This document shows positions 9,430 to 61,380 of a stretch of 64,000 bases of DNA, in pieces. The translations under genes and the position numbers were made by a program. Source of the DNA: Pontibacillus marinus BH030004 = DSM 16465 (GTDB lineage: Bacteria; Bacillota; Bacilli; Bacillales; BH030062); NCBI RefSeq assembly GCF_000425225.1, contig NZ_KE384330.1, positions 101,185 through 165,184 of the forward strand, written 5' to 3'. How positions within the stretch are numbered: position 1 is the first letter of the stretch; every line of letters begins with the position of its first letter. The notes beneath the pieces are model-generated. The model made no database searches, was not told the DNA's origin, and saw only the letters and a program-made list of their open reading frames with translations.

Positions 9430-9845
9430 GGCTTATTCTCCTTTCGCTTATTTTCATCATGTTCGTCGAGGTATTGGAGGTCCTTAAAGAGATCATCTCT
9501 TGAGTATTCAGCGAGCTCAAAGTTATTCGTCATAATGATCGCTTCAGTTGGACAAACCTCTGTACATAAATCACATAGAATACAAATTTCAAAATTAATA
9601 TCATACGTATCAATGATTTTGCCTTTTTTGTTCGGGTCTGGGTGCTTTTTCCCTGTAAGTTGAATGCAATCAGTTGGGCAAATATTCACGCACTGATTAC
9701 AGACGATACACTTTTCCGGATAAAATTTTTGAATACCACGAAACCGATCCGGCATAGGAACAGGTTCTTCCGGATAGGAGTACGTCATTTTTTCTTTGGT
9801 TAGATTTTTCAAGGTGTATTTAAATCCTTTGGCTAAACCGAGCAT
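9426..9845 (-). CDS. nuoI: NADH-quinone oxidoreductase-like subunit I (two 4Fe-4S)
   Basis: A 139-aa ferredoxin-like subunit that passes electrons along the peripheral arm of complex I. Two 4Fe-4S motifs are seen, CIVCNQCVNICP and CILCDLCTEVCP. It is the only cluster-rich subunit left of the input half, because no nuoE, nuoF or nuoG is present, so the electron donor must dock near here or at NuoB/C/D. GGGGTGGTG lies upstream of the ATG. Confidence 0.96.
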   Translation of the reverse strand: MLGLAKGFKYTLKNLTKEKMTYSYPEEPVPMPDRFRGIQKFYPEKCIVCNQCVNICPTDCIQLTGKKHPDPNKKGKIIDTYDINFEICILCDLCTEVCPTEAIIMTNNFELAEYSRDDLFKDLQYLDEHDENKRKENKP

Positions 9846-9863
9846 GTTGTCTCACCACCCCTT

Positions 9864-10883
9864 TTAAAACCAAATTGAGTAAAGTTCTTTTACAATGGCA
9901 GATAAAAAGATATTTGCTAATGCAACTGGGAGTAGGATCTTCCAACCGAACTCCATCAGCTGATCCGCTCGAATGCGCGGTAAGGTAATGCGAATCCAGA
10001 TAAATAAAAACACGACAATCATAAATTTGATACTGAACCAGAATGGATCTGGAATAAAGCCAAGCCCAGGAATCGGGTTCCATCCTCCTAAAAACAGGAC
10101 GGTAATGAGCGACGCCATCGCGAACAAATACACATATTCGGAAAGCATGAAAAAGGCCCATCTGAACCCTGAGAATTCAACGTGATAACCCGCCACAAGC
10201 TCCGATTCCGCTTCTGGCAAATCAAAAGGTGTACGATTAAGCTCTGCGTTAGCGGCAATAAAGAAAATGATAAAACCAACTGGCTGAAGGAAGATGTAGG
10301 CTACGTGTTTTTGTGCTTCTACAATCTCTGTTAAGTTCAACGTTCCAGCAAAAAGAATGACACCAATCACAGACATAACAAGTGGGACTTCATAGGAAAT
10401 CATTTGTGCTGCTGAACGCATTCCACCCATTAACGCATACTTATTATTGGATGCCCATCCTGCTGTCACGATCCCTATCGTGGAAATGCCTGATATCGCG
10501 ATATAGTACAGTAATCCAACCCCTATATCAGAAAACTTAAATGTATCTGTAAAAGGAATAACGCTAAGTATGATAAAAGCGGGTGTGAATGCGATAACAG
10601 GTGCTAGAACGAATAGCGGCTTATCTGCAAGCTTTGGACGAATATCTTCTTTCGTAAGTAGCTTCAAAATATCTGCTACCGTTTGAAGCAAGCCAAACCG
10701 CCCACCAACACGGTTGGGTCCATGACGCAGTTGCATATACCCCATCACTTTACGCTCAGCTAGTATGGCAAATGTGACGAAGCCTAGTACTAGGCTCAAC
10801 ATGCCACCCCCTAGCATCAGTAAGTAGGCCATGTTTTCAAGCGTGGGAGTAGATTGCAAGAAGCTCTCGATCCATGTCATCAA
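9864..10883 (-). CDS. nuoH: NADH-quinone oxidoreductase-like subunit H
   Basis: A 339-aa membrane subunit that joins the peripheral and membrane arms and forms part of the quinone pocket. Family signatures are visible: [20 protein letters not shown] near residue 42 and [19 protein letters not shown] in the middle. About eight helices. The start overlaps the nuoD stop by 4 bases. Confidence 0.97.
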
Positions 10884-41637: not shown

Positions 41638-42642
41638 TTACCCACCAATATAAGACATTTCAATTTTGGGTTTGTTTTGAGTTCCCTCCGTTCTGATTTC
41701 AGAATAGCGATCATCTCGTTTGTTCCAGCGATTTCGTACCAAATCCGAAATTTTCTCATCTGACTGATTAGAACGTAAGTGTTCTTTTAAGTCGTACCCG
41801 ATTGATGCAAATAAACATGTATAGAGCTTTCCTTCTGCAGATATTCTTGCTCTTGTACATGATCCGCAAAATGTATTGGAAACTGAAGAGATAAAACCAA
41901 CCTCTGATTTGCTGCCTTTAAAGCGGTACCTTTTCGCTACCTCCCCAAAATAGCTTGGATCCATGGCTACTAACGGATATTCTTTCCGAATCATGTCATA
42001 CAGTTCTTTTTTCGTCACCACCTCATTTAAATTCCATCCATTAGAAGATCCAACATCCATAAACTCAATAAAACGCAAAGTAATGCCCTCTTCCTTAAAG
42101 AAGCGCACCATCGGAAGAACTTGTTCTTCATTTAATCCCTTTTTGACAACCATGTTCACTTTCACTTCTAACCCAACATCTCTTGCTGAAAAAATCCCCT
42201 TAAGTACTTGATTAACATCCGTTCCCATATTATTAATACGTTTAAACAACTCATCATCTAAAGAATCTAAGCTGACATTCACTCGACAAATCCCTGCTTC
42301 TTTTAATTGCTTGGCATATTTAGCTAGAAATGCACCATTAGTAGTTAAAGTAATATATTTTATACCATTTACTTTATTTAATTGTTCAACGAGTTTAGGC
42401 AGATCTTTTCTTAATAAGGGCTCTCCTCCGGTCAACCGAATCTTCTCAACACCTAGCTCCGCAAATATCTTAGCCAACCGAACAATCTCTTCGAAAGATA
42501 AGAGTTCATCTTTATTCATAAAAGGATATTCAGCATCGAATATCTCTTTAGGCATACAATAGCTACATCTAAAATTGCATCTGTCTGTAACAGATATCCT
42601 TAAATCCCGTAAAGGTCGATTATGCGTATCGATTACTCTCAC
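41638..42642 (-). CDS. moaA: GTP 3',8-cyclase MoaA
   Basis: A 334-aa radical SAM enzyme for the first step of molybdenum cofactor synthesis (GTP to cyclic 8,3'-dihydro-GTP). The N-terminal SAM cluster cysteines are Cys22, 26 and 29 (CNFRCSYC) and the C-terminal substrate cluster is Cys259, 262 and 276. A terminal GG is present, as the family requires. It starts with GTG. An Fnr box with a correctly placed -10 lies upstream, so the cofactor for the nearby nitrate reductase is made with it. No other moa or moe gene is in the window. Confidence 0.95.
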
Positions 42643-42722: not shown

Positions 42723-42852
42723 GTTCACAAAACCGCCTTATTTTGTTCATAAAACATTACTTTTTACAGTAAGATACTCCATTGTTTCTAATATCACGGA
42801 ATGTTACTCTAAAGGAAACATTTGGAACGATCCCATTTCGGAGGTGAAGAGT

Positions 42853-43569
42853 TTGTTGGAAAGCACGAATAGAAAAAGTGATTTAGAATGTATTTCAGAT
42901 GACCTGACCTCCCTTCTTCAATCAATCAGCACAACCAAAACAATCGACGCAAGAACCTTTTTGTTCCAAGAAGGGGAAGAAGCACATGAATTATACGTCA
43001 TTCAACATGGTCTTATCCAAATTAGTAAATTAACTCAAGAAGGAAATGAGTTGAATTTGCGCACTTGTCAAGAAGGCGATATTGTTGGTGAGTTAACCTT
43101 GTTTACGGATGAAGCCAAATATATGCTGAATGCATATGCCTTAAAAAAATGTAAAATCTTAATTATTCAAAAGGATCAACTTGAGAAGGAATTGCTTTCA
43201 AATTCCAGACTAACTTTTGAGTTTATGAAGTGGATGACAAACCTCCTCCGTATCAATCAATCGAAAATAAAAGACCTGGTGATGAATGGAAAGAAAGGTG
43301 CCCTCTACTCAACCCTCATTCGCTTTTCAAACAGCTATGGTATTCAGCAAAAAGATGGAAGGTTAATTGATATGCATTTAACTAACCAAGAAATTGCTAA
43401 GTTCTGTGCAGCTACCCGTGAGAGTATTAATCGAATGTTGAACGACCTTAAGAAAAAGGGCATTATTCAAATAACTAAGGAAAGCAAAATACTCATTAAA
43501 GATATTCATTATTTACGAACAGAAATTGGATGTGATCACTGTCCAATAGATATTTGTGTTATTGATTAA
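42853..43569 (+). CDS. fnr: Anaerobic regulator Fnr (4Fe-4S, Bacillus type)
   Basis: A Crp-family activator with an N-terminal cyclic-nucleotide-binding fold and a C-terminal helix-turn-helix (LTNQEIAKFCAATRESINRM). With the TTG start at 42853 (GGAGG 8 bases upstream) it is 238 aa long, and cysteines fall at 227, 230 and 235 with Asp at 141. These are the ligand positions of the oxygen-labile cluster in B. subtilis Fnr, also 238 aa. A GTG three codons earlier abuts the ribosome binding site. It is the probable activator of the eight boxes in this window. Confidence 0.95.
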   Translation: MLESTNRKSDLECISDDLTSLLQSISTTKTIDARTFLFQEGEEAHELYVIQHGLIQISKLTQEGNELNLRTCQEGDIVGELTLFTDEAKYMLNAYALKKCKILIIQKDQLEKELLSNSRLTFEFMKWMTNLLRINQSKIKDLVMNGKKGALYSTLIRFSNSYGIQQKDGRLIDMHLTNQEIAKFCAATRESINRMLNDLKKKGIIQITKESKILIKDIHYLRTEIGCDHCPIDICVID

Positions 43570-44194: not shown

Positions 44195-44237
44195 TGTGAT
44201 ATACTTCACACACAATTAACTCCCTCTTTGGTAAGAT
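44195..44237 (+). promoter_or_regulatory. Fnr-type promoter of the narK pair
   Basis: Perfect TGTGA-TATACT-TCACA (44195-44210), 21 bases, TAAGAT (44232-44237), 35 bases before the narK start. Confidence 0.85.
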
Positions 44238-44271: not shown

Positions 44272-45621
44272 GTGAAGAATTCAAATGTTTCTCACAATCA
44301 TACTTCAGAATCAACTCTTAAATCTTCAAGAATAAATCAATGGGATCCTGAAAATGAAACGTTTTGGGTAACAGAGGGTAAAAGGCACGCTAACCGAAAT
44401 CTAACCATATCTGTAATAGCTTTATTCCTAGCTTTTGCAGTTTGGCAAATTTGGTCTGTCGTTGCTGTTAACTTAAACAGTGTTGGCTTTAATTTTACTA
44501 ATAGTGAGTTATTCACACTCGCTGCTTTACCAGGGTTAGTAGGAGCTACATTCCGAATCTTCTTTACATTTATGCCTGGCATAGTTGGTGGGAAAAATTG
44601 GACTGTGATTAGCACAGGGGCTTTATTAATCCCTTCCATTGGAATAGGGTTTGCGGTGCAAAACCCAGAAACACCTTTTGTAACCATGGCAATCCTTGCT
44701 GCCCTTTGTGGTATTGGTGGAGGTAACTTCTCTTCTTCTATGGCAAATATTAGCCCATTTTTTCCAAAGAAGCTTAAAGGAACTGCCAATGGACTAAATG
44801 CCGGACTAGGAAATCTAGGTGTTAGTGCTGTTCAATTCATTACTCCCATTGCACTTGGGTTTGGTTTTATTGGAGCAATGACAGGTGGTTCCCAAACATT
44901 AGATGAAGGTAAAACCGTTTGGATTCAAAATGCAGCTTTTATTTGGGTAATTCCGATTATTCTCATTACACTTATCGCCTTGTGGGGAATGGATAATCTT
45001 CCAGGTACGAAGCAGTCCTTTAAAGAACAATCCATTATTTTCAAAAACAAGCATACATGGATTATGACATGGCTCTATACAATGTGCTTCGGATCTTTTA
45101 TCGGTTATTCTGCTGCTTTCCCATTACTAATTAACTCTGAATTCTCGCATGTGGATGGAGCTGTAGGCTTAGCATTTTTAGGACCTTTACTTGGTGCTGG
45201 CATTCGTCCAGTCGGTGGTTGGTTATCAGACAAGGTGAAAAGCGGTTCTTTGGTTACATTCTGGGACATTGTCGTCATGATTGGCGCTACGGTCGGAGTC
45301 GTTTACTTCTTAAATGCCCAAAACTTTACTGGTTTCTTAATTATGTTCCTGATCTTATTCCTAACAACTGGAATTGCGAATGGTTCGACGTTTCGTATGG
45401 TTCCATTTATCTTCCCTGAAAAACAGTCTCCACCAGTATTAGGCTTTATTGCTGCTATTGCTGCATATGGTGCTTTTCTAATACCTAAAGTATTTGGATG
45501 GTCTATTGACTCAACTGGTACTGCCAATTTAGCTTTATATATCTTTATCATCTACTATGTCATCAGCCTGTTCATTACATGGTTTTGGTACTCCAGAAAA
45601 AATGCTGAAATAAAGTGCTAA
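44272..45621 (+). CDS. narK: NarK-type nitrate/nitrite transporter (first)
   Basis: A 449-aa MFS protein with 12 helices and a 50-residue polar N-terminus. Nitrate-porter signatures are GIGGGNFSSSMANISPFFPK and, in the second half, a matching glycine-rich helix (TTGIANGSTFRMVPFIFP) with the conserved arginines of the NarK substrate site. By similarity it is the nitrate/nitrite exchanger-like type. It starts with GTG after AAAGGGG, behind an Fnr promoter, and is cotranscribed with the next gene. Confidence 0.9.
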   Translation: MKNSNVSHNHTSESTLKSSRINQWDPENETFWVTEGKRHANRNLTISVIALFLAFAVWQIWSVVAVNLNSVGFNFTNSELFTLAALPGLVGATFRIFFTFMPGIVGGKNWTVISTGALLIPSIGIGFAVQNPETPFVTMAILAALCGIGGGNFSSSMANISPFFPKKLKGTANGLNAGLGNLGVSAVQFITPIALGFGFIGAMTGGSQTLDEGKTVWIQNAAFIWVIPIILITLIALWGMDNLPGTKQSFKEQSIIFKNKHTWIMTWLYTMCFGSFIGYSAAFPLLINSEFSHVDGAVGLAFLGPLLGAGIRPVGGWLSDKVKSGSLVTFWDIVVMIGATVGVVYFLNAQNFTGFLIMFLILFLTTGIANGSTFRMVPFIFPEKQSPPVLGFIAAIAAYGAFLIPKVFGWSIDSTGTANLALYIFIIYYVISLFITWFWYSRKNAEIKC

Positions 45622-45654: not shown

Positions 45655-46878
45655 ATGAGGTTGAAAAGTTTCTTGAAAAGCGGCCACACTCCAACGCTCG
45701 CTTCATCATTTTTATATTTTGATATAAGTTTTATGATTTGGGTTATTTTAGGGGCTACAGGTAATTTTATTGTAGAAGATCTAAACTTGACAGCTGCTCA
45801 GAAAGGGATGATGGTTGGCATCCCTGTTTTAGGAGGTGCTTTACTCCGAATTCCAATGGGTCTCTTAGCTGATAAATTTGGTGGCAAAAAGATGGGGTTA
45901 ATTGGAATGACGTTAACCATGATTCCTCTTGCATGGGGATGGTTGTTTGCCGATTCTCTAAGTGAAGTCTATTCACTTGGTTTCTTGCTAGGTGTAGCCG
46001 GAGCTAGTTTTGCAGTCGCTTTACCGCTAGCGAGTAGATGGTATCCACCTGAGCATCAGGGCTTAGCAATGGGAATTGCGGGTGCTGGTAATAGTGGAAC
46101 CGTTATTGCAACCTTCTTCGGACCAAGGTTAGCCGAAATATATAGTTGGAACTTCGTATTTGGAGTTGCACTAATCCCTTTAATCATAGCTTTTATTGTA
46201 TTCGCTATTTATGCTAAAGACTGTCCATCTGCGAAGCGACCTCAGAATGCCAAAGAGTACTTTAGCGTTATTAAACGAAAAGAACCTTGGCTGTTTGCTT
46301 TCTTTTACAGCTTATCCTTCGGCGGATTTGTAGGTTTGACTAGTTATTTAACGATATTTTTCTTTGATCAGTATGGTGTAAGTAAAGTGCAAGCTGGTGA
46401 TTTTGTGACACTCGTTGTATTTGCAGGAAGTTTTGTACGTCCAATTGGGGGCTTTTTAGCAGATAAATGGGGAGGGATGATTATGCTTGTCTTCCTCTTC
46501 TCAGGGGCTACGATCTGCTTGGGGATTGTTGGTATGTTACCGCCTGTTTACATTGCACTAGCAATGTTATTCCTTACCTTAGTCTTTTTAGGGACAGCGA
46601 ATGGTGCTTTGTTTCAGGTTATTCCAGTTAAATTCCCTAAAGAAGTTGGGCTTTTAACTGGATTTGTAGGGGCAGCAGGTGGTTTAGGAGGATTCTTCTT
46701 ACCAAACATCCTGGGAATTTTCAAACAGGTCACTGACTCTTATTCATATGGATTTTGGTGGGTTGCAACAACCATTTTAATCGCCATGATTATGTTATAC
46801 ACGATGTATCGCAAAGATCAACAGGAACGTTTAACACACCAACTTTCACATACAAATAGAGTAAATAGTAGAGTTTAA
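45655..46878 (+). CDS. narK: NarK-type nitrate transporter (second)
   Basis: A 407-aa MFS protein with 12 helices. Signatures are GVAGASFAVALPLASRWYPP and FLGTANGALFQVIPVKFP. It is clearly different from the first transporter and closer to the proton-coupled nitrate importer type. In some proteobacteria these two types are fused in one protein; here they are two adjacent genes 33 bases apart. AAGGAGG precedes the ATG. A terminator follows. Confidence 0.9.
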   Translation: MRLKSFLKSGHTPTLASSFLYFDISFMIWVILGATGNFIVEDLNLTAAQKGMMVGIPVLGGALLRIPMGLLADKFGGKKMGLIGMTLTMIPLAWGWLFADSLSEVYSLGFLLGVAGASFAVALPLASRWYPPEHQGLAMGIAGAGNSGTVIATFFGPRLAEIYSWNFVFGVALIPLIIAFIVFAIYAKDCPSAKRPQNAKEYFSVIKRKEPWLFAFFYSLSFGGFVGLTSYLTIFFFDQYGVSKVQAGDFVTLVVFAGSFVRPIGGFLADKWGGMIMLVFLFSGATICLGIVGMLPPVYIALAMLFLTLVFLGTANGALFQVIPVKFPKEVGLLTGFVGAAGGLGGFFLPNILGIFKQVTDSYSYGFWWVATTILIAMIMLYTMYRKDQQERLTHQLSHTNRVNSRV

Positions 46879-47136: not shown

Positions 47137-47673
47137 ATGCTATCAGTTGAACTCCACACACCAGAATCAAATGAAACAGAAAAAATACTGAAGTCAAATG
47201 GTTTTCAAGAGAGTAACGGACACATGGTGTACAAACCGAACAAACAAGAACAAATTACCGTTATACTTAATAAGACAAACCAGAAGATTACACTAACGTT
47301 CTCACCCCAACTCAACCTTGAACAATTCACCACCATCCATCAAAAGATCATGGAGCTCATACAGTGTTTCGATAGTAAATACGATGACTCGAACAGCTTA
47401 TTAGGATACTTAAAAGACGGTGAGGGCGCTTATATCATAACCAACTGGTCGAAATGGTATAAATTGCTGCAGGACGCTAGATTGAAAACACTTGAGGGGC
47501 AGAAGGTTCGGATTCTCGACCAAAAGGAAAACGAACTCGGTTCAGGAATATTTGTAGACTACAAAAGGGACACTGAACATTTAACCATAATTGAATGTTC
47601 AATTATTACGTTATTTGGAGAGAAGGCTTATTCAGGTACCAATTTAAAAATAGAACCGACGAATGAATGGTAA
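47137..47673 (+). CDS. Unknown 178-aa protein in the anaerobic regulon
   Basis: I do not recognise this soluble protein. Residues 1-105 alternate strands and helices and have no cysteine cluster (one Cys, in MELIQCFDS). Residues about 120-175 look like a small beta-barrel (LEGQKVRILDQKENELGSG, LTIIECSIITLFGEKAY). No signal peptide or membrane helix. AAGGAGG lies before the ATG and an Fnr-type promoter before that, between the nitrate transporters and the nitrate reductase. A chaperone or adaptor role is possible but only a guess. Confidence 0.8.
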   Translation: MLSVELHTPESNETEKILKSNGFQESNGHMVYKPNKQEQITVILNKTNQKITLTFSPQLNLEQFTTIHQKIMELIQCFDSKYDDSNSLLGYLKDGEGAYIITNWSKWYKLLQDARLKTLEGQKVRILDQKENELGSGIFVDYKRDTEHLTIIECSIITLFGEKAYSGTNLKIEPTNEW

Positions 47674-48393: not shown

Positions 48394-48461
48394 TACGCAC
48401 ATTATCTCGAAACCAAGTCTTCTACATAAGGGGGCTTTAGTTGAAGAACAAGTCAATTAAA

Positions 48462-48513
48462 AGAGTTCACTACGGATAGATAACCTTTATCCGTAGTGAA
48501 CTCTTTTTTCCTT
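48462..48513. terminator. Terminator of the nitrate reductase operon
   Basis: GAGTTCACTACGGATA pairs with TATCCGTAGTGAACTC. T runs follow on both strands, TTTTTT on plus and TTTT on minus. Confidence 0.9.
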
Positions 48514-48519
48514 GTTCTA

Positions 48520-48711
48520 TCATTTATATTCTTGCTTACGCCAGCGCCAAAACGTTAGCACACATATTAGAGAAGATACAATACTAACAATCGAATATGT
48601 GATGACATGTTCGTATTCTTCTCCGAAAAACGATTCGATCGTCCATTGTAGTGCAACTACATTCACAGCTAGTGTAATGAAAATGATGATCCAATAGATT
48701 TTTTTACCCAT
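48520..48711 (-). CDS. Small two-helix membrane protein of the nitrate reductase operon
   Basis: A 63-aa protein with two membrane helices (IYWIIIFITLAVNVVALQW and VITYSIVSIVSSLICVLTFW) joined by the acidic loop TIESFFGEEYEH and ending in basic residues. It overlaps the end of the Rieske gene by 8 bases and is followed by the operon terminator, so it is very likely translated as the last operon member. It may be an accessory subunit of the membrane complex. I know no family for it. Confidence 0.75.
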   Translation of the reverse strand: MGKKIYWIIIFITLAVNVVALQWTIESFFGEEYEHVITYSIVSIVSSLICVLTFWRWRKQEYK

Positions 48712-49234
48712 GTCGGATCTGCCTTCCTACTGCATACACAACTCCATTTTCTACTTGAATATCAATTAAAGGTAACTCTCTTTGTGGAGGACCTGCTAAA
48801 GGGTGACCGTTATCGACACTGAAGAATCCCCGGTGACATGGGCACAGTAGGACAGATTCCTCTTTTTCATAGAAAACAGGACATTGTAGGTGTGTACACT
48901 TGTTATTGTAAGCTTTTAATTCTCCATCCTTTGTATGAACTAAAATGGCTGGCTCACTCTCAGTAGGATACTGAAAATTTATCGCACTGTCTTTAGGAAT
49001 ATCAGCAAGCTTCGCAATCTCTTTTCTATTATCATCCTTTTCCTTATCCTGAAGGGCTAGAACAGAAAAAGGTAAAGTAGCTACACCTAGTGTGACGGTT
49101 GCTCCAACGGCAGATTTCAGAAAAGATCTTCGGTTAAATTTCAAATCTTCATCACGTTCTAGGTTGTGGATGAGCCCAACCATATCCTCTCTTGTTTCTT
49201 TTTGATTTCGTTTTCCTTTTTGCTCTTTTGACAA
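48704..49234 (-). CDS. Tat-exported Rieske 2Fe-2S protein
   Basis: A 176-aa protein. A twin-arginine signal/anchor (NRRSFLKSAVGATVTLGVAT, RR at 35-36) leads to a Rieske domain with ligands Cys113/His115 and Cys131/His134 and the disulfide pair Cys118/Cys133 (CTHLQCP and CPCHRG). The domain should lie outside the membrane, like QcrA of the bc complex, but no cytochrome b6 or c1 partner is present. It is cotranscribed with the nitrate-reductase-like genes and the b-type membrane subunit, so it probably passes electrons with them. Confidence 0.92.
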   Translation of the reverse strand: MSKEQKGKRNQKETREDMVGLIHNLERDEDLKFNRRSFLKSAVGATVTLGVATLPFSVLALQDKEKDDNRKEIAKLADIPKDSAINFQYPTESEPAILVHTKDGELKAYNNKCTHLQCPVFYEKEESVLLCPCHRGFFSVDNGHPLAGPPQRELPLIDIQVENGVVYAVGRQIRHG

Positions 49235-49251
49235 GATGCACAGCCTCCTTA

Positions 49252-49794
49252 TTAATCCGTATAAACTCCAAAGAATTCAGGAACATACTCCCACTTGTTT
49301 CCTTCTTGAGGCTTTTTACCCTCTACCAGATTCATTTGGGAACGTCTTCTTCGCAACTGTTGCATCTCATCAAAATCAATAAAGCGAATCGCATCGCTCG
49401 GACAAACAGATGCACACATTGGAGCAATATCATGTTTGGATCGATCGTAACACATGTCACATTTATACATTTTATTCTCTTCAAAATCGAACTTCGGAAT
49501 CCCGAATGGGCATCCAAATGTACAATTGCGGCAACCAATACATTTTTCTTCCATTGCTGACAGAACAACGCCTTCATCCGTAATTTGAATCGCATTAGCG
49601 GGACAAACACGTGCACAAGCAGGGTCTTTACACTGCATACAAAGCATTGGGTACGTTTGACGACTCTCTGTAAAATCTACATACTCTACGTAATTTCGTT
49701 CCTTAGCATCATGGTCACCACACTCACGACAAGCTGCTTGACAAGCTCGGCACCCGATACATCGTTCAAACTCCAAGTACATAATTTTATTCAC
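49252..49794 (-). CDS. Four-cluster ferredoxin-like electron-transfer subunit
   Basis: A 180-aa protein of the FdnH/NrfC/DmsB type with four 4Fe-4S sites: Cys12-15-18-22, 52-55-60-64, 85-88-91-95 and 112-115-127-131. No signal peptide, so it stays inside the cell with the catalytic subunit. It overlaps that gene by 8 bases. It should carry electrons from the membrane subunit to the molybdenum site. Confidence 0.92.
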   Translation of the reverse strand: MNKIMYLEFERCIGCRACQAACRECGDHDAKERNYVEYVDFTESRQTYPMLCMQCKDPACARVCPANAIQITDEGVVLSAMEEKCIGCRNCTFGCPFGIPKFDFEENKMYKCDMCYDRSKHDIAPMCASVCPSDAIRFIDFDEMQQLRRRRSQMNLVEGKKPQEGNKWEYVPEFFGVYTD

Positions 49795-51940
49795 GAGTTA
49801 TCCCCTCTTTCTTTGCAGGTAATTTTTCCATCTGTAGCGCGCACACTTTAAATTCGGGCATTCTAGATATAGGATCTAGACAATCACTTGTTAGTTGGTT
49901 CACCGCTAACTCTTTCCCCCAGTGATAAGGGACAAACACTGTATCTTTCCGTATGGCTTTCGTGATTTTCGTTTTGACAGTCATATGGGAACGTGGTGTT
50001 TTCAGTTTTACCATGTCTCCATCTTCTAGTTGATATCGACTTGCTAACGCCGGATGCATTTCAGCAAAAGGCTCAGGACATTGTTCCATTAAGAAATCCA
50101 CACGTCTTGTTTGATTACCTGATAGATAATGGAAAACGACACGCCCTGTAGTTAGAAACAGTGGATAATCTTTGGTTGGTACTTCTCCTGCCTCTTTCCA
50201 TCCCACTACCCCAAGATTCGCTTTCCCATCCTCTGTATAAAAGGATTCTTCAAACATTGTTGGTGTCCCTGGATGGTCCTCTGCAGGACATGGCCAGAAT
50301 ACACCGTTTTCTCTATCTATGCGATCCCAAGTGATTCCGTAGTAATCGGCTTTTCCACCTTTTGTTGCTAAGCGAAATTCATCAAAAATCTCACCAGCTT
50401 CATTATATAAAAAGTGCTTCCCTTTCCCCATTCTTTCAGCAATTAAGCTTAAAATCTCCCAATCTGGTTTTGACTCCCCTATGGGATCTGTTACTTTACG
50501 AATTCGAATAACTCGACCTTCAATATTGGTCGTCGTCCCTTCATCTTCCGCCCACGTTGTAGCTGGTAATACCACATCCGCAAAGGAAGCTGTTTCAGAT
50601 AAGAAGAAGTCACTTACAACTAGAAAATCTAGCTTCTTAAAACCATTCCAAATATGCTCGAGATTTGGTGCCGAAACAGCTGGGTTTGAACAAATGACAT
50701 GCATGCCACGGATATTACCCTTCTCAATCTCTCCAAACATTTCATAGGCTGAGACTCCTGGCTTCGGCATTTCACTTGGATCGATCCCCCAAATACTTGA
50801 AATGTATTCCACGGCCGCTGGATCTGTTAGCTTACGATATCCTGGTAATAAGTCCGATTTCTGACCATGTTCTCTCCCGCCTTGACCATTCCCCTGTCCT
50901 GTGAATGTAGCTACACCAGATGCGAATTTTCCTACCTGTCCTCTAAGGAGTGCCATTGAGCTATATAAGCGAACATTATCTACCCCTTTAGATTGTTGTT
51001 CTACTCCTCGTGCAAACATGACAACAGAACGTGGGGACATCCCATAAATATGTGCTGCTTTAATAAGTTTCTCCACTGCCACTCCTGTAATCTCAGAGGT
51101 ATATTCAGGAGTGAATTTATCTACATTTTGTTTTAACTCTTCGAAGTTATTGCATCGCTTTGAAACGTACTCCTTATCCACATATCCCTCTTTAATAATT
51201 AAATGAAGCATACCATTCGCAAGCGCAGAGTCCGTACCAGGTTTTAAATCTAAGTGAACGTCTGCCACTCGAGCTGTCGGTGTCTCACGTGGATCCGCTA
51301 CGATGAGTTTAGCTCCTTTGTCCTTTGCTTTCCAGAACCATTGGATACTTGTTGGATGACATTCTGCTGTATTTGAACCTGCTAAAAAGAAGCAATCACT
51401 GTGTTCAAGCTCTGTCCAAGGTAGCGTGGATCCACGGTCTACACCAAAAGTTTGAATAAACCCTCCGGCTGCTGAACTCATGCAGAAACGTCCATTATAA
51501 TCAAGGTAACGAGTCCCTAGTCCGACACGAGCATATTTACCAACCAAATAACACTTTTCATTTGTCATTGATACCCCACCAAAAACTGACAGAGCATCTT
51601 TTCCACTTTCTTCTTGAAGTCTTTTAAAGTTCTTTTCAATTAAATCGAGAGCTTCTTTCCAAGAGGATTCTACAAATTCCCCGTTCTTTTTAATCAGAGG
51701 CTTTGTAATACGGTCCTGGTGATCAATTGTTTGATAAGCAGTTACGCCTTTCGGACACATTTTCCCATTCGTAACAGGCCAGTCGTATCTTGGTTCTACT
51801 CCCACAACTTTTCCTGAACTTTTATTCACTCGAATATGCATTCCACATTGCATACCGCAATAACAACAATGTGTTGTAATTAACTTTTCACCTGGTTTAT
51901 GAAGATTCTGAATGCCTTCTTTTGCTATGAAATCACTCAT
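49787..51940 (-). CDS. Molybdopterin oxidoreductase, NarB/NasC-type nitrate reductase catalytic subunit
   Basis: A 717-aa bis-MGD enzyme. The 4Fe-4S motif is Cys25-28-32-62 followed by Lys64 (HCCYCGMQCGM, MCPKG). The molybdenum ligand is Cys153 in GRFCMSSAAGG, and GSNTAECHP follows; these resemble cyanobacterial NarB and Bacillus NasC rather than formate dehydrogenase. Length equals assimilatory NasC (about 710 aa). There is no Tat signal, so it is cytoplasmic. Unlike assimilatory enzymes it is cotranscribed with a polyferredoxin, a Rieske protein and a membrane cytochrome, under an Fnr promoter, beside two NarK genes. I infer respiratory nitrate reduction; another oxyanion substrate is possible. 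Confidence 0.85.
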   Translation of the reverse strand: MSDFIAKEGIQNLHKPGEKLITTHCCYCGMQCGMHIRVNKSSGKVVGVEPRYDWPVTNGKMCPKGVTAYQTIDHQDRITKPLIKKNGEFVESSWKEALDLIEKNFKRLQEESGKDALSVFGGVSMTNEKCYLVGKYARVGLGTRYLDYNGRFCMSSAAGGFIQTFGVDRGSTLPWTELEHSDCFFLAGSNTAECHPTSIQWFWKAKDKGAKLIVADPRETPTARVADVHLDLKPGTDSALANGMLHLIIKEGYVDKEYVSKRCNNFEELKQNVDKFTPEYTSEITGVAVEKLIKAAHIYGMSPRSVVMFARGVEQQSKGVDNVRLYSSMALLRGQVGKFASGVATFTGQGNGQGGREHGQKSDLLPGYRKLTDPAAVEYISSIWGIDPSEMPKPGVSAYEMFGEIEKGNIRGMHVICSNPAVSAPNLEHIWNGFKKLDFLVVSDFFLSETASFADVVLPATTWAEDEGTTTNIEGRVIRIRKVTDPIGESKPDWEILSLIAERMGKGKHFLYNEAGEIFDEFRLATKGGKADYYGITWDRIDRENGVFWPCPAEDHPGTPTMFEESFYTEDGKANLGVVGWKEAGEVPTKDYPLFLTTGRVVFHYLSGNQTRRVDFLMEQCPEPFAEMHPALASRYQLEDGDMVKLKTPRSHMTVKTKITKAIRKDTVFVPYHWGKELAVNQLTSDCLDPISRMPEFKVCALQMEKLPAKKEGITRE

Positions 51941-53118
51941 CGCTCGTTTCCTCCCTCTTCTTTATGCTGTTCCAGCTCTTTTTGAACGTGATCTGGAAAA
52001 TTATAATAATCATCTGTTCGTCTGCTACCAAAACCGGACATTTCAGAACCATTGCGCGTTAAAATCGGGTTATGTCCCTGTTGAAGGTGTGGCTGATTAT
52101 TTAATTGCTTCATAACACGAATCCTTCTTCTACAAGCTGGACAGTAATCAGATAGATACGAACCATCCTCTAGTTGTAGATCAAACTGTTGCACGCTCAA
52201 GATTTCCTTTACGTCACTTACCTGTGGATCTGAACTGTACACTGTACCACATCGCAAACATGGTCTGGTGTCCACTTTCCACTCCTCTTGATAGTTCATC
52301 GGAACAGCCGTTGTAAGTGGTCGAATCGGTAAATGAAATAGCTTTCCAAACGGGAAATAAATCAGTAAAACCACAACGGTTACCTGGTGTACAAGTGTCA
52401 TATAATGATGCATCCAACCATCTAATAAGACGTAAGAAACGGTTAACAATAGCCCTGTAACTGTAACGGCTAATAAAAGGAATAATGGAAATAAGTCAAA
52501 TTCAGCGCGTTGTGTTACCTTGACATCCTCATTTATAATCCTCCTAGTCAATGCCATACATACACCAATTAAAACCATTGAAGCTGTAATATTTAATCCG
52601 TTATAAACCATTTCAGCAAAGAGACCATGAGCAGCCATTGATATGGTTTCAACCCCCATTACGACAATCGTATAGGTTTCTGGATCCACTAGTTCAAAGT
52701 GCATCCAACCAAAGGTAAGGCCAAACGTGATAGCGAATGACCCTATGCACCCCCATGCGATTAGAAAGTGCTGTACGCCTCTATAAATTCCTCTTTTAAA
52801 AATAAATTTCTGTAAAAATATATTTTCAAAAGCTGTTTTCAAGATTGCTTTCATATTTCTCCGCTTATATTTGCGTTGCCTCAAATTCTTTAAGCTACGC
52901 TGGATCACTTGTCTTGTAGCCGGTCGTAGTAACCAAGAACTCATACGAATCGTCAAACCAATAGCAAAGATAAGGGAAGAAATGAGGTATCCCATTAACG
53001 CCATATCAAAATGCAAAAAATTCTCTGTTCCTATCCATATGGAGAAAAACAGGAGTAAGACAACAATGAAAGAATATTTACTGCTCTTGGAGTAAAACGA
53101 CCTCTCTAAAGACTTCAT
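51937..53118 (-). CDS. b-type membrane subunit with cytoplasmic Cys4 domain
   Basis: A 393-aa protein with about seven membrane helices in residues 15-262. Histidines near helix ends (His117, His140, His164, His237/238, His244, His262), with HQVTVVVLLIYFPFGKLFHL resembling the NarI/DsrM haem-b helix, suggest a quinol-oxidising di-haem cytochrome b. The 130-residue tail has Cys287-Cys290 and Cys326-Cys329, a zinc-ribbon or rubredoxin-like site. First gene of the operon, overlapping the catalytic gene by 4 bases. I do not know an exact family for the whole protein. Confidence 0.8.
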   Translation of the reverse strand: MKSLERSFYSKSSKYSFIVVLLLFFSIWIGTENFLHFDMALMGYLISSLIFAIGLTIRMSSWLLRPATRQVIQRSLKNLRQRKYKRRNMKAILKTAFENIFLQKFIFKRGIYRGVQHFLIAWGCIGSFAITFGLTFGWMHFELVDPETYTIVVMGVETISMAAHGLFAEMVYNGLNITASMVLIGVCMALTRRIINEDVKVTQRAEFDLFPLFLLLAVTVTGLLLTVSYVLLDGWMHHYMTLVHQVTVVVLLIYFPFGKLFHLPIRPLTTAVPMNYQEEWKVDTRPCLRCGTVYSSDPQVSDVKEILSVQQFDLQLEDGSYLSDYCPACRRRIRVMKQLNNQPHLQQGHNPILTRNGSEMSGFGSRRTDDYYNFPDHVQKELEQHKEEGGNER

Positions 53119-53220
53119 TATTTATAAGCCCCCTTGTGACATTTTTAACATCCTATTGATACATCATTTGTTACATTATTTATAAACACTACGTCCTTAG
53201 CGCTATGATCAACTATCCTA

Positions 53221-53263
53221 AGTGTACAAAAATGTAATTTTTAAGACTGTGAAATACATCACA
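53221..53263 (-). promoter_or_regulatory. Fnr-type promoter of the nitrate reductase operon
   Basis: Perfect TGTGA-TGTATT-TCACA (53248-53263, minus strand), 21 bases, TACACT (53221-53226), about 100 bases before the operon's first ATG. For the plus-strand gene at 53305 the same box would put the start point on the ribosome binding site, so it mainly serves the minus strand. Confidence 0.85.
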
Positions 53264-53304: not shown

Positions 53305-54054
53305 ATGTTATCAGGAGAAGTTATTGCTGTAACAAGTGGAAAAGGTGGGGTAGGAAAGTCAACCGTTTCCGTCAACTTAGCCATTGCTCTAGCTCGTAAA
53401 GGATTGGATGTCGCGCTTATAGACCTTGATATTTACGGGTTCAGTGTTCCTAAAATGATGAATCTTAGCAATCGACCGAAAACCTTCAATGGACGAATTA
53501 TTCCAATTGAGTCACATGGCGTAAAGGTTATGTCTATGGGATTCCTCGTAAAAGATAATGACCCCGTCGTATGGAGAGGACCGATGCTTGGAAAGATGGT
53601 TGAACATTTTAAAAATGATGTAACGTGGGGGAAATTAGACTATTGTATCATTGATATGCCACCAGGCACGGGAGATGTTGCTTTAGACTTACATCACCAT
53701 ATCCCACAAAGTAAAGAAATTATCGTTACAACCCCTCATCAGACGGCATCACTTGTGGCTGAGCGAGCAGGAAAAATGACGATTAAAGCCAATCATGACA
53801 TTTTAGGAATCGTAGAAAACATGTCTTATTTTCAACCCAAGGATCAGAGTGAAAAATACTATATTTTCGGAAAAGATGGAGGAGACCTATTAGCTGATAC
53901 ATTAAACTCAGACGTATTAGCTCGATTACCAATTGAAGAACCAAATGAGTCGTCTCAAACCCCATCCATTTATGCAGAAAACACAAACCTTTGTCACCAT
54001 TATGATCACTTAGCTACAAGAGTTGATGAGAAGATTGCACATAAAGCTCATTAA
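53305..54054 (+). CDS. Mrp/SalA-like P-loop ATPase lacking the cluster-binding cysteines
   Basis: A 249-aa Mrp/NBP35-family ATPase. The deviant Walker [11 protein letters not shown] begins at residue 11, with [10 protein letters not shown] and [12 protein letters not shown] following. The N-terminal MIP18-type domain of full Mrp is absent, and the CxxC pair that holds the bridging Fe-S cluster is missing: after ENMSYF comes [17 protein letters not shown]. In this it resembles B. subtilis SalA. It is divergent from the nitrate reductase operon, so a part in maturation is possible. GAGGTG precedes the ATG. Confidence 0.88.
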
Positions 54055-54965: not shown

Positions 54966-56099
54966 ATGAAGAACAGAGACTTTAATAAAAATCCTTTTAT
55001 TGTAATCTGGGAATTAACAAGAGCTTGTGAATTACATTGTCTTCACTGTCGAGCAGAAGCCCAATACAAACGTCATCCACTAGAACTTGATTTTGAGGAA
55101 GGTAAACAATTAATTGATTCAATCTATGAAATGGATAACCCCATGTTGGTCTTTACCGGTGGAGACCCGTTAATGAGACCAGATGTGTATGATATTGCCT
55201 CCTATGCGATCCAAAAGGGGGTTCGTGTATCTATGACACCTAGTGCAACCCCAAATGTGACCAAAGAAGCCATCAAAAAAGCGAAAGATATTGGTCTGTC
55301 ACGATGGGCTTTTAGTTTAGATGGACCGAATGCTGAGATCCATGATCATTTTCGAGGAACTTCAGGATCATATGATTTAACAATGAACGCCATTGACTAT
55401 ATCCATGAACTAAAACTTCCATTACAAATAAACACGGTTATCTCCCGATACAATATCGATTTCTTAGAGGACATGGCCTCGTTAATTGAACAGTTAGATT
55501 GTGTGCTTTGGAGTGTCTTTTTCCTTGTTCCTACCGGAAGAGGTCAAAGCAAAGATATGATCTCACCAGTCGAGCACGAAAAAGTTTTTCGCTGGCTTAA
55601 TGATTTAAGCAACCGAGTATCATTTGATATCAAAACCACTGCTGCCCAGCACTATAGACGAGTGGTGATTTCAGATAAAATGCGTAGAAACAATGACAAG
55701 GATAAAGAAATTATGTACTCCAATGCTTTGCATGAGGGGAAAACAGGACAATTTGATGGCCTTGGACGGGCACCACATGGTGTGAATGATGGAAATGGTT
55801 TTGTGTTTATCTCTCATATTGGAGATGTTTATCCAAGTGGCCTTCTACCCATTAAGGCGGGAAATGTACGAGAAACACCTTTACCAGATATTTATAGAAA
55901 TTCACCTATTTTTAAAGAATTACGAAATCCCGACTTATATAAGGGAAAATGTGGTCAATGTGAATTCCGCTATGTTTGCGGTGGTTCTCGATCTCGGGCA
56001 TACGCCTTAACAGGGGATTATTTAGAGAGTGAACCTGCATGTGTTTATATTCCACAAAGTATGAGAGGAAACAAGACTACATCTGAATCAAATCAATAG
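54966..56099 (+). CDS. Radical SAM/SPASM protein, NirJ/AhbC-like
   Basis: A 377-aa protein. The SAM cluster cysteines are Cys21, 25 and 28 (CELHCLHC), with FTGGDPLMRPD following. The C-terminal SPASM region has CGQCEFRYVCGGSRSRAY and a final cysteine in SEPACVY. This layout is that of the haem-modifying NirJ and AhbC group and of the TIGR04053-type Bacillus proteins. No nirS or other haem-d1 genes are in the window, so a d1 role is unproven. It is cotranscribed with a Crp/Fnr regulator 14 bases downstream. Confidence 0.85.
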   Translation: MKNRDFNKNPFIVIWELTRACELHCLHCRAEAQYKRHPLELDFEEGKQLIDSIYEMDNPMLVFTGGDPLMRPDVYDIASYAIQKGVRVSMTPSATPNVTKEAIKKAKDIGLSRWAFSLDGPNAEIHDHFRGTSGSYDLTMNAIDYIHELKLPLQINTVISRYNIDFLEDMASLIEQLDCVLWSVFFLVPTGRGQSKDMISPVEHEKVFRWLNDLSNRVSFDIKTTAAQHYRRVVISDKMRRNNDKDKEIMYSNALHEGKTGQFDGLGRAPHGVNDGNGFVFISHIGDVYPSGLLPIKAGNVRETPLPDIYRNSPIFKELRNPDLYKGKCGQCEFRYVCGGSRSRAYALTGDYLESEPACVYIPQSMRGNKTTSESNQ

Positions 56100-56933: not shown

Positions 56934-57635
56934 ATGCAACAAACCTTTAGCGAAGCGTCCATCATCCGAGATATTGTCACTCAATTCCCAAAAGCCAGTG
57001 ATCTGTTTAAGTCCTATCGAATTGATTTCTGTTGTGGGGGTAACCGCCCGCTTGTTGAAGCGATCCAGGAAAGAGGATTATCTTCTGAGGAAGTAGTGAA
57101 TCAATTAAACACACTCTATAAAGATTCAAAGGCATTACAAGAAACAAACATTGATTGGAATTCATCTTCTTCGCAAGAATTAATTGATCACATCATTCAA
57201 AAACATCACAAGTACTTAAATGAAGAATTGCCACAGCTAAGCCCCTATGTCACTAAAGTATTCCGTGTACATGGGCAATCACAGCCACACCTGGGCACAA
57301 TCCATATACTATTTAATGAACTCAAGAAAGAGCTTGAGCAACACCTTATAAAAGAAGAATCAGAAGACTTCCCTTTACTTCTTGAATACGAACAAATTCC
57401 AACCATTGAAAATCGAGAGAAATTAATGAGAGTGGTGGAAAGCTTAGAGGAAGAACATGCGCATGCTGGAAATCTTCTTAAGGAGATTCGTCAAGTTACG
57501 AATGACTTCACACCTCCCCAAGATGCATGTGGCACGTATCGCCTCGTCTATCAACGACTAGAAGCACTGGAACAAGATTTATTCGAGCACATTCACTTAG
57601 AAAATAATATCTTATTTCCAAGAGCCGTTTCCTAA
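56934..57635 (+). CDS. ric: Iron-sulfur cluster repair di-iron protein Ric (ScdA/YtfE)
   Basis: A 233-aa protein that restores Fe-S clusters damaged by NO or peroxide. The N-terminal ScdA_N domain has FCCGGNRPL (Cys33, Cys34). The hemerythrin-like domain carries the His/Glu iron ligands (IDHIIQKHHKYL, HGQSQPHLGTIH, EEEHAHAGNLL, FEHIHLENNILFPRA). TGGAGGG precedes the ATG. Its Fnr promoter and place next to NO-handling genes fit protection from nitrosative stress. Confidence 0.95.
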   Translation: MQQTFSEASIIRDIVTQFPKASDLFKSYRIDFCCGGNRPLVEAIQERGLSSEEVVNQLNTLYKDSKALQETNIDWNSSSSQELIDHIIQKHHKYLNEELPQLSPYVTKVFRVHGQSQPHLGTIHILFNELKKELEQHLIKEESEDFPLLLEYEQIPTIENREKLMRVVESLEEEHAHAGNLLKEIRQVTNDFTPPQDACGTYRLVYQRLEALEQDLFEHIHLENNILFPRAVS

Positions 57636-58986: not shown

Positions 58987-60666
58987 TTACCACGTTTTAA
59001 TAGGTGGAGACCCTGGAGGCGCATTGATCGTGAAATCCACGATTGGAATTACATACCCCATGGCAATCAGTAATAGCATAATCACTATCCAATTCCCCCA
59101 ACGTTCCGTCCAATATGGAGTATAGGTATCATGTTCTTCCCTTTCAGCGATCGGAAATTCTGTTTTCCCTTTCGGCGCTCGAAACATGAGATGAAAAACA
59201 GCATACACTTGCAACAGGACACCTACGATTAATAGAACCCCACCAATTGCGATAAGGATCATGAATGGATCCCATCCCATTGCAGTGGCACTCTCTCCAT
59301 AAGTGGTATAAGACGTTCTGCGTGGTGCACCAAGTAACCCAACATAGTGCATGGACCCAGCCATAAACAGCATACCAACTGTCCAAATGAACGTCTGAAT
59401 TACCCCTAAGCGATTGATCTTCGGTGTTAATGTGCGATTAGAAATATAAGGGACTAACCAATAGGTAATCCCAAAGAACGTTAAGATAACCGAAGTTCCT
59501 ACCGTTATGTGAAAATGTCCTACAATCCACATCGTGTTATGCACGACTTGATTCAATTGGTTCGTTGATTGAACAATCCCACCAGCGCCCCCGACTATAA
59601 AGGCAATCATTGCAATCATTGGGGCTAAGAACCGAACATCACCCCAAGGCAATTTTTTGTACCAACCTAATAAACCTTTTCCACCTTGCTTCCGACCTGT
59701 CCGTTCAAATACAGAGAACATCGCATAAGCCGTCATTAAAGATGGAAACGCGATTGATAGACTCATAAAGACATGCAAGAATTTCACTTCCTGAGAAATT
59801 CCGGGATCAACGATTTGATGATGAAACCCGCCCGGTATATTCATAACAACAAGCAAAATAACTACAATCCGAGTTAATGTATCACTAAAACGGCGACCTC
59901 CAATAACTTTCGGAACAATGACATACCACGCAGAGACTGCTGTCAGATACCATATGTTAACCAACGTATGTCCAAATGCCCAAAACAGAGTCCGACTTAA
60001 CATCACATTAATCGTTTCCACCCATCCAAAAGCCCAAGGAATAATCATAAAGACTTCTATTGCTACAGGGATACTCCCAAAAAACAAGAGAACAAATACA
60101 CCCGTTGCAAAGAATGAAAAGATCGGTAAATTTTGTCCTCGATTATTTTTTCTCCAATGAGCAACATTGATGAACGCCCCAAATGCACACATCCAAACTC
60201 CTAAAACAATAAGCACTAATCCAATGTAGAAATAAGGAGATGCGGCCATTGGAGGGTAGAACGTATATAAAACAGATGCTTGATTTAACAGAATTGGGAT
60301 AACGGCAAACACAAAACCCACGATCTTCAAACTAAATCCAATCCACGCCATCTTTCTTACTTTTGGCAGAAGACCTCCTAAAGTATGAGACAAGCCCGCA
60401 TAAAAATAACCGATTGTAAAGAAGGCCGTTAACACAAGAACTAATAACACTCCATGAGCTGTTAAAACTTGATAATAATTTAACCAATAGGGCAGTTCTA
60501 ACATTCCTGCACGATTAAGCCCTTGCAATAACCCTAATATCCCGCCAAGCAGTAATGCTACAAAAGCTACAAATAGATATGATTTCGATATTCTAGCATC
60601 CTCTCGCTGAAGTCCCATGTACCGATTTACTTTTTGTATATAGGATTCCTTAAGTGCTGTTTCCAT
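58987..60666 (-). CDS. Haem-copper enzyme subunit I of ba3 type, probable CuA-dependent nitric oxide reductase
   Basis: A 559-aa protein with 13 or so helices, collinear with Thermus ba3 oxidase subunit I. Haem and CuB ligands are all present: His71, His233, His282/283, His384 and His386. At position 237, where oxygen reductases have the Tyr cross-linked to His233, this protein has Asn (GHTLVNIW), and the K-path Tyr244 is Val; Tyr248, Ser309 and Thr312 remain. Loss of the active-site Tyr is the mark of NO reductases, and CuA-containing NO reductases of this subfamily (CuANOR/bNOR) are known in Bacillus azotoformans. The Fnr promoter and ric support this. An oxygen reductase with an unusual site is the alternative. 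Confidence 0.85.
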   Translation of the reverse strand: METALKESYIQKVNRYMGLQREDARISKSYLFVAFVALLLGGILGLLQGLNRAGMLELPYWLNYYQVLTAHGVLLVLVLTAFFTIGYFYAGLSHTLGGLLPKVRKMAWIGFSLKIVGFVFAVIPILLNQASVLYTFYPPMAASPYFYIGLVLIVLGVWMCAFGAFINVAHWRKNNRGQNLPIFSFFATGVFVLLFFGSIPVAIEVFMIIPWAFGWVETINVMLSRTLFWAFGHTLVNIWYLTAVSAWYVIVPKVIGGRRFSDTLTRIVVILLVVMNIPGGFHHQIVDPGISQEVKFLHVFMSLSIAFPSLMTAYAMFSVFERTGRKQGGKGLLGWYKKLPWGDVRFLAPMIAMIAFIVGGAGGIVQSTNQLNQVVHNTMWIVGHFHITVGTSVILTFFGITYWLVPYISNRTLTPKINRLGVIQTFIWTVGMLFMAGSMHYVGLLGAPRRTSYTTYGESATAMGWDPFMILIAIGGVLLIVGVLLQVYAVFHLMFRAPKGKTEFPIAEREEHDTYTPYWTERWGNWIVIMLLLIAMGYVIPIVDFTINAPPGSPPIKTW

Positions 60667-60678
60667 TGCTGTCCCCCC

Positions 60679-61140
60679 TTATTTCACATTAATAGTTGTA
60701 CTCATTAATTGATGGCCTGCACCACAATACTCATTACATAAAACCAAGTATTCACCAGGACGATCAAATGTCTGAGTGATTTTTTGTATATGACCAGGCA
60801 TAACCATAGCATTAATATTTGTTCCAGCTACCTGAAAACCATGCGTTACGTCTTTTGAAGTTAAAATAAAATGAACTGTTGCACCTGCAGGAATTTCTAT
60901 ATCACTTGGATTAAAACTAAATATTTGCATCGTCATAACAACTTCATATTCATTTTCTCCAATCTTTTTAATCCCTGGTTGATCGAATGGTGCTGTTTCA
61001 TCTACCTTCTGTGGATCGATTGTCTCACCGTGACTAGGTGGCCCCATTTCCAAAGCAAAGGTTTGATATCCTGTAGCAAGCATAAAAGCCATCAACATAC
61101 CAAAACTTAAAGCAAGCCATATCATTTCAGATTTACTCAT
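60679..61140 (-). CDS. CuA-containing subunit II of the ba3/NOR-type enzyme
   Basis: A 153-aa protein with one N-terminal helix and a cupredoxin domain outside the membrane. CuA ligands are His100, Cys135, Glu137 (backbone), Cys139, His143 and Met146 (CNEYCGAGHQLM). It accepts electrons, probably from a cytochrome c, and passes them to subunit I, 12 bases downstream. Confidence 0.93.
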   Translation of the reverse strand: MSKSEMIWLALSFGMLMAFMLATGYQTFALEMGPPSHGETIDPQKVDETAPFDQPGIKKIGENEYEVVMTMQIFSFNPSDIEIPAGATVHFILTSKDVTHGFQVAGTNINAMVMPGHIQKITQTFDRPGEYLVLCNEYCGAGHQLMSTTINVK

Positions 61141-61337: not shown

Positions 61338-61380
61338 AGCTTAATTGATAACCATTTTCAATGATGTGAAATAAATCACA
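61338..61380 (-). promoter_or_regulatory. Fnr-type promoter of the NO reductase-like operon
   Basis: Perfect TGTGA-TTTATT-TCACA (61365-61380, minus strand), 21 bases, TAAGCT (61338-61343), 32 bases before the first ATG. Confidence 0.85.

Follow-up and report, generated by a model that had tools for sequence, protein, structure and literature searches.

Can a molybdoenzyme of the type regarded as assimilatory nitrate reductase serve in nitrate respiration? This question is raised by five adjacent genes on the minus strand of a 64,000-nucleotide stretch of the genome of Pontibacillus marinus BH030004, which is referred to here in its full length as the window and in whose coordinates the operon genes and flanking features are given. 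In the order of their transcription the genes are designated M, C, F, R and S. The operon is real and conserved, and it probably encodes a respiratory nitrate reductase complex of a kind that we did not find described. We put the probability that this is a third type of respiratory nitrate reductase next to Nar and Nap, linked to quinol, at roughly three in four.

The first gene, M (51937–53118), codes for 393 amino acids resembling the membrane cytochromes b of the NarI/QmoC type (with presumed heme binding), including six predicted transmembrane helices, the invariant residues His117, His244 and His262 and a tail with four cysteines (C287, C290, C326 and C329). It is followed by C (49787–51940; 717 amino acids), a NasC-like molybdoenzyme with an N-terminal [4Fe-4S] cluster and no matched Tat (twin-arginine translocation) signal, and by F (49252–49794; 180 amino acids, GTG start), a ferredoxin subunit of the DmsB/FdnH type with motifs for four [4Fe-4S] clusters. 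R (48704–49234; 176 amino acids, TTG start) is a Rieske [2Fe-2S] protein with a twin-arginine signal/anchor, and S (48520–48711) a membrane protein of 63 amino acids with two helices recognized by eye. An initial annotation of this DNA had claimed five cotranscribed genes with products of this kind, and all five open reading frames are indeed present on the minus strand. Their cotranscription is probable, as M and C (−4 bp), C and F (−8 bp) and R and S (−8 bp) overlap and only F and R are separated, by +17 bp. A perfect Fnr box, TGTGAAATACATCACA, is located at 53248–53263 as annotated before, upstream of both M and a divergent plus-strand gene for an Mrp/ApbC-type Fe-S carrier (53305–54054). 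A long hairpin directly past S (48460–48506) scores as terminator-like for the plus strand only; as a guess, it might mark the end of the minus-strand operon.

Many Bacillaceae share the operon with its gene order, and it recurs in Deinococcus and in a bacterium of the Chloroflexi. M was found in 48 of 199 relatives, 39 genomes carrying the group A form, 14 the group B form (M 39–44% identical to that of the window) and five both. Gene order was counted in 88 loci (75 of group A, 12 of group B and one of the Chloroflexi), the counts omitting 20 group A stretches (L080–L099), partly from the same genomes, and covering 12 of the 14 group B operons; the 75 group A loci and the Chloroflexi locus constitute the 76 named loci, several of which are closely related to each other. 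The set M-C-F-R is complete in 85 of the 88 loci, every time on one strand and in the same order, with the genes in pieces in some of them; among the three exceptions, L110 and L140 stop at contig ends and L162 is broken. The neighbourhood search proposed in the initial annotation thus returned a recurrent gene set, and the order is also kept in all 20 further group A stretches. Operon genes split into several pieces or incomplete were observed in L162, L170, L122, L131, L101 and L085, reflecting either assembly errors or pseudogenes, and a contig labelled Chryseobacterium sp. ISL-80 (L141) carries a Bacillus-type operon and probably stems from a mislabelled or contaminated assembly. M is encoded on four Deinococcus plasmids. 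In the two that were opened, M (annotated as ‘MFS transporter’), C, F, R and a DUF6755 gene are succeeded by a transporter gene, which is annotated as ‘nitrate/nitrite transporter’ on one plasmid and as ‘MFS transporter’ on the other. The Deinococcus operons L180 and L181 have an extra small open reading frame ahead of M (9703–9900 and 9664–9876, respectively; 65–70 amino acids, no Pfam match), and FmdE genes lie nearby. A phylum-wide draw of 398 genomes contained M in only two, one being the host of the window, and M is therefore not general in Bacillota.

Model scores by themselves leave the identity of the catalytic subunit undecided, because C falls below the cut-off of the NasC equivalog NF047855 (908.2 of 1100 bits) and passes that of the Fdh-alpha (formate dehydrogenase) model TIGR01591 (670.3 versus 666.25 bits). 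In addition, the solved structures scoring best with C are formate dehydrogenases. The NarG model is matched with 82.4 bits at a cut-off of 1084, which indicates that C is not NarG. A clearer picture is provided by a tree of 54 selected proteins, comprising 17 of group A, eight of group B, one of the Chloroflexi, two of Deinococcus, 16 of the 30 fetched NasC and ten others, without cyanobacterial NarB and arsenite oxidase AioA. The operon-type C proteins form their own clade (support 97/95) as sister to the NasC clade (96/89), with 100/100 for the pair, and C lies outside the NasC clade. Both fall into the Nas/Nap part (97/93) and all four formate dehydrogenase rows outside it, the tree carrying warnings about long branches, chiefly those of the host protein L003 and the NasA/NapA join, and about odd composition in seven rows. 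The phylogeny recommended in the initial annotation accordingly separates C from formate dehydrogenases. The active-site alignment, read from 14 of the 54 rows, confirmed Cys153 as the molybdenum (Mo) ligand claimed earlier for the NasC-sized enzyme. C contains DYNGRFCMSSA, in which Cys153 is followed by Met, and TGQGNGQGGRE, as in NasC and nearly as in NasA and NapA, and thereby has the Cys-Met and TGQ...RE signatures of the Nas/Nap superclade; the two formate dehydrogenase rows displayed have C-Q and RGHNNVQG instead. The assignment of C as a formate dehydrogenase, prompted by the TIGR01591 score and the best-scoring structures, was rejected on the basis of the tree and the active-site motifs. 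The same two observations would favour a more general alternative, namely a respiratory enzyme acting on a different oxyanion, such as chlorate or selenate, or else a formate dehydrogenase that delivers its electrons to the quinone pool; it is opposed by the tree position, the Cys-Met and TGQ...RE motifs and the NarK and NreA-like neighbours described below, and we regard it as quite improbable.

The relationship to NasC is close, and the two types are nevertheless separable by score. Above the formate dehydrogenases, the matches of the NasC model in 198 relatives fall into two groups, 36 at 1130–1347 bits and 53 at 697–946 bits (the two lowest of the latter being incomplete), with a gap between 946 and 1130 bits. 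When positions were compared, all 53 M matches (199 genomes searched) were found to adjoin a C of 697–946 bits, and none of the 36 over-cut-off NasC adjoins M. The two types differ likewise in predicted regulation. We scanned for TGTGA-N6-TCACA from 300 bp upstream of M to 60 bp into the gene and found a perfect Fnr box in 62 and a box with at most one mismatch in 73 of the 76 named loci, compared with 0.04% and 1.4% in mononucleotide shuffles. After similar upstreams had been collapsed into 39 clusters, 30 contain a perfect box and 37 one with at most one mismatch, and dinucleotide shuffles gave 0 and 1.9%, respectively. In the same test, the upstreams of true NasC yielded neither a perfect box (0/30) nor one with a single mismatch (0/30). 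An Mrp gene is situated near the operon in 43 of 75 group A loci, 24 times upstream and on the opposite strand and 19 times downstream and on the strand of the operon itself; in group B this holds for 5 of 12 loci. The box is not merely that of Mrp, since with at most one mismatch it is present in all 32 loci without Mrp and in 18 of 19 with Mrp downstream; the corresponding value for Mrp upstream is 23 of 24. Considering the score gap, the separate clade and the Fnr contrast, the identification of C as a plain assimilatory NasC was rejected.

In group B, no Fnr box was detected (0/12 loci), yet six of these twelve loci carry NreABC-like genes nearby, consisting of a GAF protein matching NreA (98.5 bits, under the cut-off of 175), a PAS/HisKA_3 kinase and a NarL-type regulator; one representative of each protein was scanned and relatives were counted across the 12 loci. 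The same module may thus be wired to two different oxygen/nitrate sensors, Fnr in group A and an NreABC-like system in group B. The anaerobic respiratory role postulated in the initial annotation is supported by the conserved Fnr boxes of group A and by the NreABC-like genes close to six of the twelve group B loci. A quinol-driven assimilatory nitrate reductase would consist of the same complex but deliver nitrite to biosynthesis without conserving energy. Such a function would be in line with the sister position of C to assimilatory NasC, the missing boxes of group B and the presence of the gene set in Deinococcus hosts, a genus which is mostly aerobic. A related proposal was made in the 2012 genome paper on Bacillus bataviensis, where, in the part of the article available to us, a nasC linked to genes called HCP and Rieske was read as an alternative assimilatory system and a membrane partner is not mentioned (PMC3475470). 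However, the Fnr contrast between operon and NasC loci, the NreABC-like genes of group B and the coexistence of a true NasC in 16 of the 48 operon genomes (8.5 expected) argue against this function, as does a host assembly without NirB over the cut-off (which may have another nitrite reductase). We therefore consider an assimilatory role unlikely.

For the remaining subunits the initial annotation proved largely accurate. Sixteen of the 17 cysteines of F were found by reading the sequence to be arranged in four cluster motifs, in agreement with the four-cluster ferredoxin claimed; F resembles the four-cluster subunits of dimethyl sulfoxide reductase, formate dehydrogenase-N and NarH and is the most conserved subunit, with 84–100% identity across group A loci. 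R contains the Tat motif NRRSFLK and the Rieske ligands CTHLQC...CPCH of the exported Rieske protein predicted before, scoring over the cut-off with Pfam Rieske and under it with TAT_signal (19.3 of 22.7 bits). The twin-arginine motif is found in all R rows except L152, L169, L170 and L175, where the start is misplaced or the gene incomplete; the reading frame of L175 displays SRREL. By its Tat signal and the pattern CTHxxC...CPCH, R corresponds to Rieske proteins of the bc type. In bc1 Rieske proteins CPCH is followed by G-S-x-Y, in R mostly by x-G-F/Y; where the hydrogen bonds of Ser and Tyr are lost, a low Rieske potential is to be expected. The small gene S, present as annotated, was retrieved by BLAST in 72 of 85 loci, and S-like small open reading frames follow R in all seven group B loci inspected, the Chloroflexi locus and two Deinococcus loci. 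DUF6755 (PF20540, cut-off 27 bits) is matched by the Deinococcus proteins with 42.9 and 44.3 bits and by the Chloroflexi protein with 24.8 bits; S of the window has no match and is, by eye, a counterpart of these proteins in position and pattern.

Among C, F and R of the window only R has a Tat match in the profile scan, and R matches the AioB model weakly (45.5 bits, cut-off 95.65). In the arsenite oxidase AioBA, a partner subunit is exported by Tat as a hitch-hiker. The Tat signal of R might analogously export C and F, giving an outward-facing, Nap-like nitrate reductase. We judge this arrangement very improbable, as C lies outside the Nap clade and nitrate uptake is indicated by the NarK genes that 33 of the 75 group A loci and nine of the 12 in group B have within the fetched flanks. 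Moreover, the hydropathy profile of M and its positively charged stretch 62–116 predict a cytoplasmic location of the Cys4 tail.

This tail, already noted in the initial annotation, contains four invariant cysteines in two CxxC pairs, but the seven helices assumed there are reduced to six, predicted by both hydropathy and an AlphaFold2 model, whose pLDDT (predicted local distance difference test) score rose from 61.0 to 81.6 with a deeper alignment. Several results, weak but consistent, make M placeable as a membrane subunit of the NarI/QmoC/DsrM type. Pfam NarI is matched by 41 of 62 M members at E 0.01 or better (best 8.2e-06), the QmoC model by 62 of 62, DsrM by 32 and TmcC by 23, the QmoC score of the window's M being 38.3 bits and thus far below the 300-bit cut-off. 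Foldseek with the M model returned EtfD and NarI entries with probability 1.00 and E-values of 0.02–0.14. The four heme ligands of NarI are H56, H66, H187 and H205. hhalign pairs H244 and H262 of M with H187 and H205, and H117 pairs with H56 in a forced full alignment only, so that three of the four ligands have counterparts.

Based on these data, the quinol-to-nitrate route proposed in the initial annotation is supported, with nitrate as the presumed substrate and quinol as the presumed donor, and might operate as follows. Fnr would turn on the operon without oxygen and NarK bring nitrate into the cell. Menaquinol would be oxidized at the outer membrane face through the joint action of M and the exported Rieske protein R, and electrons would traverse the membrane via a heme b of M held by H117 and H262. 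From there, they might proceed via the Cys4 tail of M on the cytoplasmic side and through the four clusters of F to the [4Fe-4S] cluster of C and on to the Mo centre, where nitrate would be reduced in the cytoplasm. As protons would be released outside and consumed inside, energy would be conserved as in NarGHI. S would be a small structural subunit.

A number of observations do not fit smoothly and have to be set against this scenario. Besides the Fdh-alpha score and best-scoring structures of C and the missing boxes of group B mentioned above, no Fnr box was found at L143, L162 and L175, and boxes are not restricted to M: among 334 other long open reading frames of the named loci, whether real or antisense, 52 have a perfect box and 84 a box with no more than one mismatch, which we ascribe to shared promoters and neighbouring Fnr-controlled genes. 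NarG and the operon occur together in seven genomes with 7.3 expected; the operon as a simple replacement of NarG was discarded, since its presence is independent of NarG. The assignment of M suffers from a Pfam NarI score of 20.5 bits for the window's protein, under the cut-off of 22.9, from the lack of any Foldseek match at E ≤ 0.001 and from a weak hhalign result against NarI (31% identity over 88 columns; probability 50, compared with 0.2 for reversed NarI). Furthermore, the NarI ligand H66 has no histidine counterpart in any of 62 M proteins: position 127, which has the same spacing, is Ser in 56 and Ala in 6, and position 131, the alternative if the gap of the forced alignment is real, is Thr in all 62. 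The distal heme of M may consequently be absent or differently ligated. The missing counterpart of H66 and the conserved Rieske protein suggest that the outer half of the electron path is unlike that of NarGHI. R might replace the distal heme, relay electrons or join an electron splitting, in which the two quinol electrons might be divided between nitrate and a second acceptor. We tentatively advance, as a possible though rather doubtful scheme, a third respiratory class in which the NarI-type cytochrome b has an altered distal heme that the exported Rieske protein replaces or assists; quinol would then be oxidized on the outside in a bc-like manner, with cytoplasmic nitrate as the acceptor.

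The surroundings of the operon and the equipment of the host provide further context. Profile searches of the 4.28 Mb host assembly revealed no NarG, NasC or NirB over the cut-off, and NirK and NrfA had no match in it; besides C itself, a search with this protein recovered only two molybdoenzymes, which are more distant (33% and 29% identity). The window contains five perfect Fnr boxes compared with 0.10 expected from shuffles, the other four being located, by position, upstream of a gene for 150 amino acids with a weak cNMP (cyclic nucleotide)-binding match (43637), the first NarK gene (44195–44210), a RIC gene (56850) and oxidase genes (61365–61380). The two NarK genes and moaA of the initial annotation were verified: nitrate/nitrite transporters of the NarK family are encoded on the plus strand at 44272–45621 and 45655–46878, both under the TIGR00886 cut-off of 311.7 bits (296.0 and 277.9 bits, respectively), and true MoaA for molybdenum cofactor synthesis on the minus strand at 41638–42642 (397.9 bits, cut-off 284). 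A gene for the Mo cofactor or for molybdate transport occurs within the fetched flanks of 34 of the 75 group A loci, and the same is true of two of the 12 loci in group B. A Crp/Fnr regulator (42844–43569, plus strand) ends in a CX2CX4C motif, CDHCPIDIC when translated by eye, a C-terminal feature of Bacillus-type Fnr. The plus-strand gene at 47137–47673 encodes a 178-amino-acid protein with no Pfam match over the cut-off, which has relatives in 54 of the 75 loci of group A and in three of the 12 of group B; we guess that it could be a dedicated accessory or assembly factor. On the other side of the operon, a radical SAM (S-adenosylmethionine)/SPASM protein (54966–56099) matches TIGR04053 with 521 bits (cut-off 395) and the AhbD heme b synthase model with 358 bits, under its cut-off; it is not MoaA, and in 15 of the 75 group A loci a relative is encoded close to the operon. 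The RIC/ScdA iron-sulfur repair protein (56934–57635) fits nitric oxide stress during nitrate respiration. For the heme-copper oxidase subunit I and CoxB-like subunit (58987–61140), the perfect upstream Fnr box suggests tuning to low oxygen.

In the open-access literature, subscription papers being mostly outside its scope, we recognized no characterized enzyme with the gene set M-C-F-R-S, and the available portions of PMC6349771 and PMC12769810 make no mention of it. The initial annotation could not match the subunit set to a described enzyme, which holds to this extent, but M by itself can be placed in a known type. According to the accessible parts of two surveys, homologs of NasC/NasA serve nitrate assimilation exclusively (PMC10100899), and the canonical four-cluster or membrane-anchor subunits are not associated with any member of the clade that comprises NasA/NasC, AioA and NapA (PMC7331816). 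If the respiratory interpretation is true, both statements, as given there, require an exception. Some Bacillaceae with an enzyme labelled assimilatory would then be nitrate respirers overlooked by narG-based surveys, because neither NarG nor NasC exceeds the cut-off in 28 of the 48 genomes that carry the operon (NapA was not searched there).

How, then, does the complex relate to known systems? NasC of Bacillota shares a catalytic subunit of similar size with matching active-site motifs and 44.5–47.9% identity (16 NasC rows of the tree). In contrast, C of the operon misses the NF047855 cut-off, belongs to a separate clade, is linked to F, R, M and S and is accompanied by an Fnr box (73/76 versus 0/30). 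Nap has a related catalytic subunit with the Cys-Met motif; however, the two NapA rows are only 27–28% identical to C and lie on another branch, C has no Tat match and the operon contains no NapB, NapC, NapD or NapGH gene. Archaeal nitrate reductase clusters with Rieske protein and cytochrome b are of the NarG type. In Caldithrix abyssi, nitrate reductase genes likewise adjoin those for a Rieske protein and a cytochrome b, but the enzyme belongs to the Nap family and the cytochrome b is of the bc1-complex type, as described in the part of the paper available (PMC5317091). As far as these sources could be consulted, neither the Caldithrix nor the archaeal clusters combine a subunit of the NasC type with a cytochrome b of the NarI type. 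QmoC, DsrM and TmcC are related to M by the profile matches given above, but M scores far under their cut-offs and these names stand for subunits of different electron-transfer complexes (Qmo and Dsr of sulfate reduction). The general plan is that of NarGHI, which also combines a Mo subunit, a four-cluster subunit and a NarI-type cytochrome b, two of whose ligands, H187 and H205, align with H244 and H262 of M. NarI has five helices. Unlike NarGHI, the operon encodes a C that is not NarG, an F whose 180 amino acids fall far short of the 492 positions of the NarH model, and an M with six helices, a Cys4 tail and no counterpart of H66, and it adds a Rieske protein and S. The operon would provide a natural test of how a Rieske protein can cooperate with a cytochrome b of the NarI type instead of the bc type.

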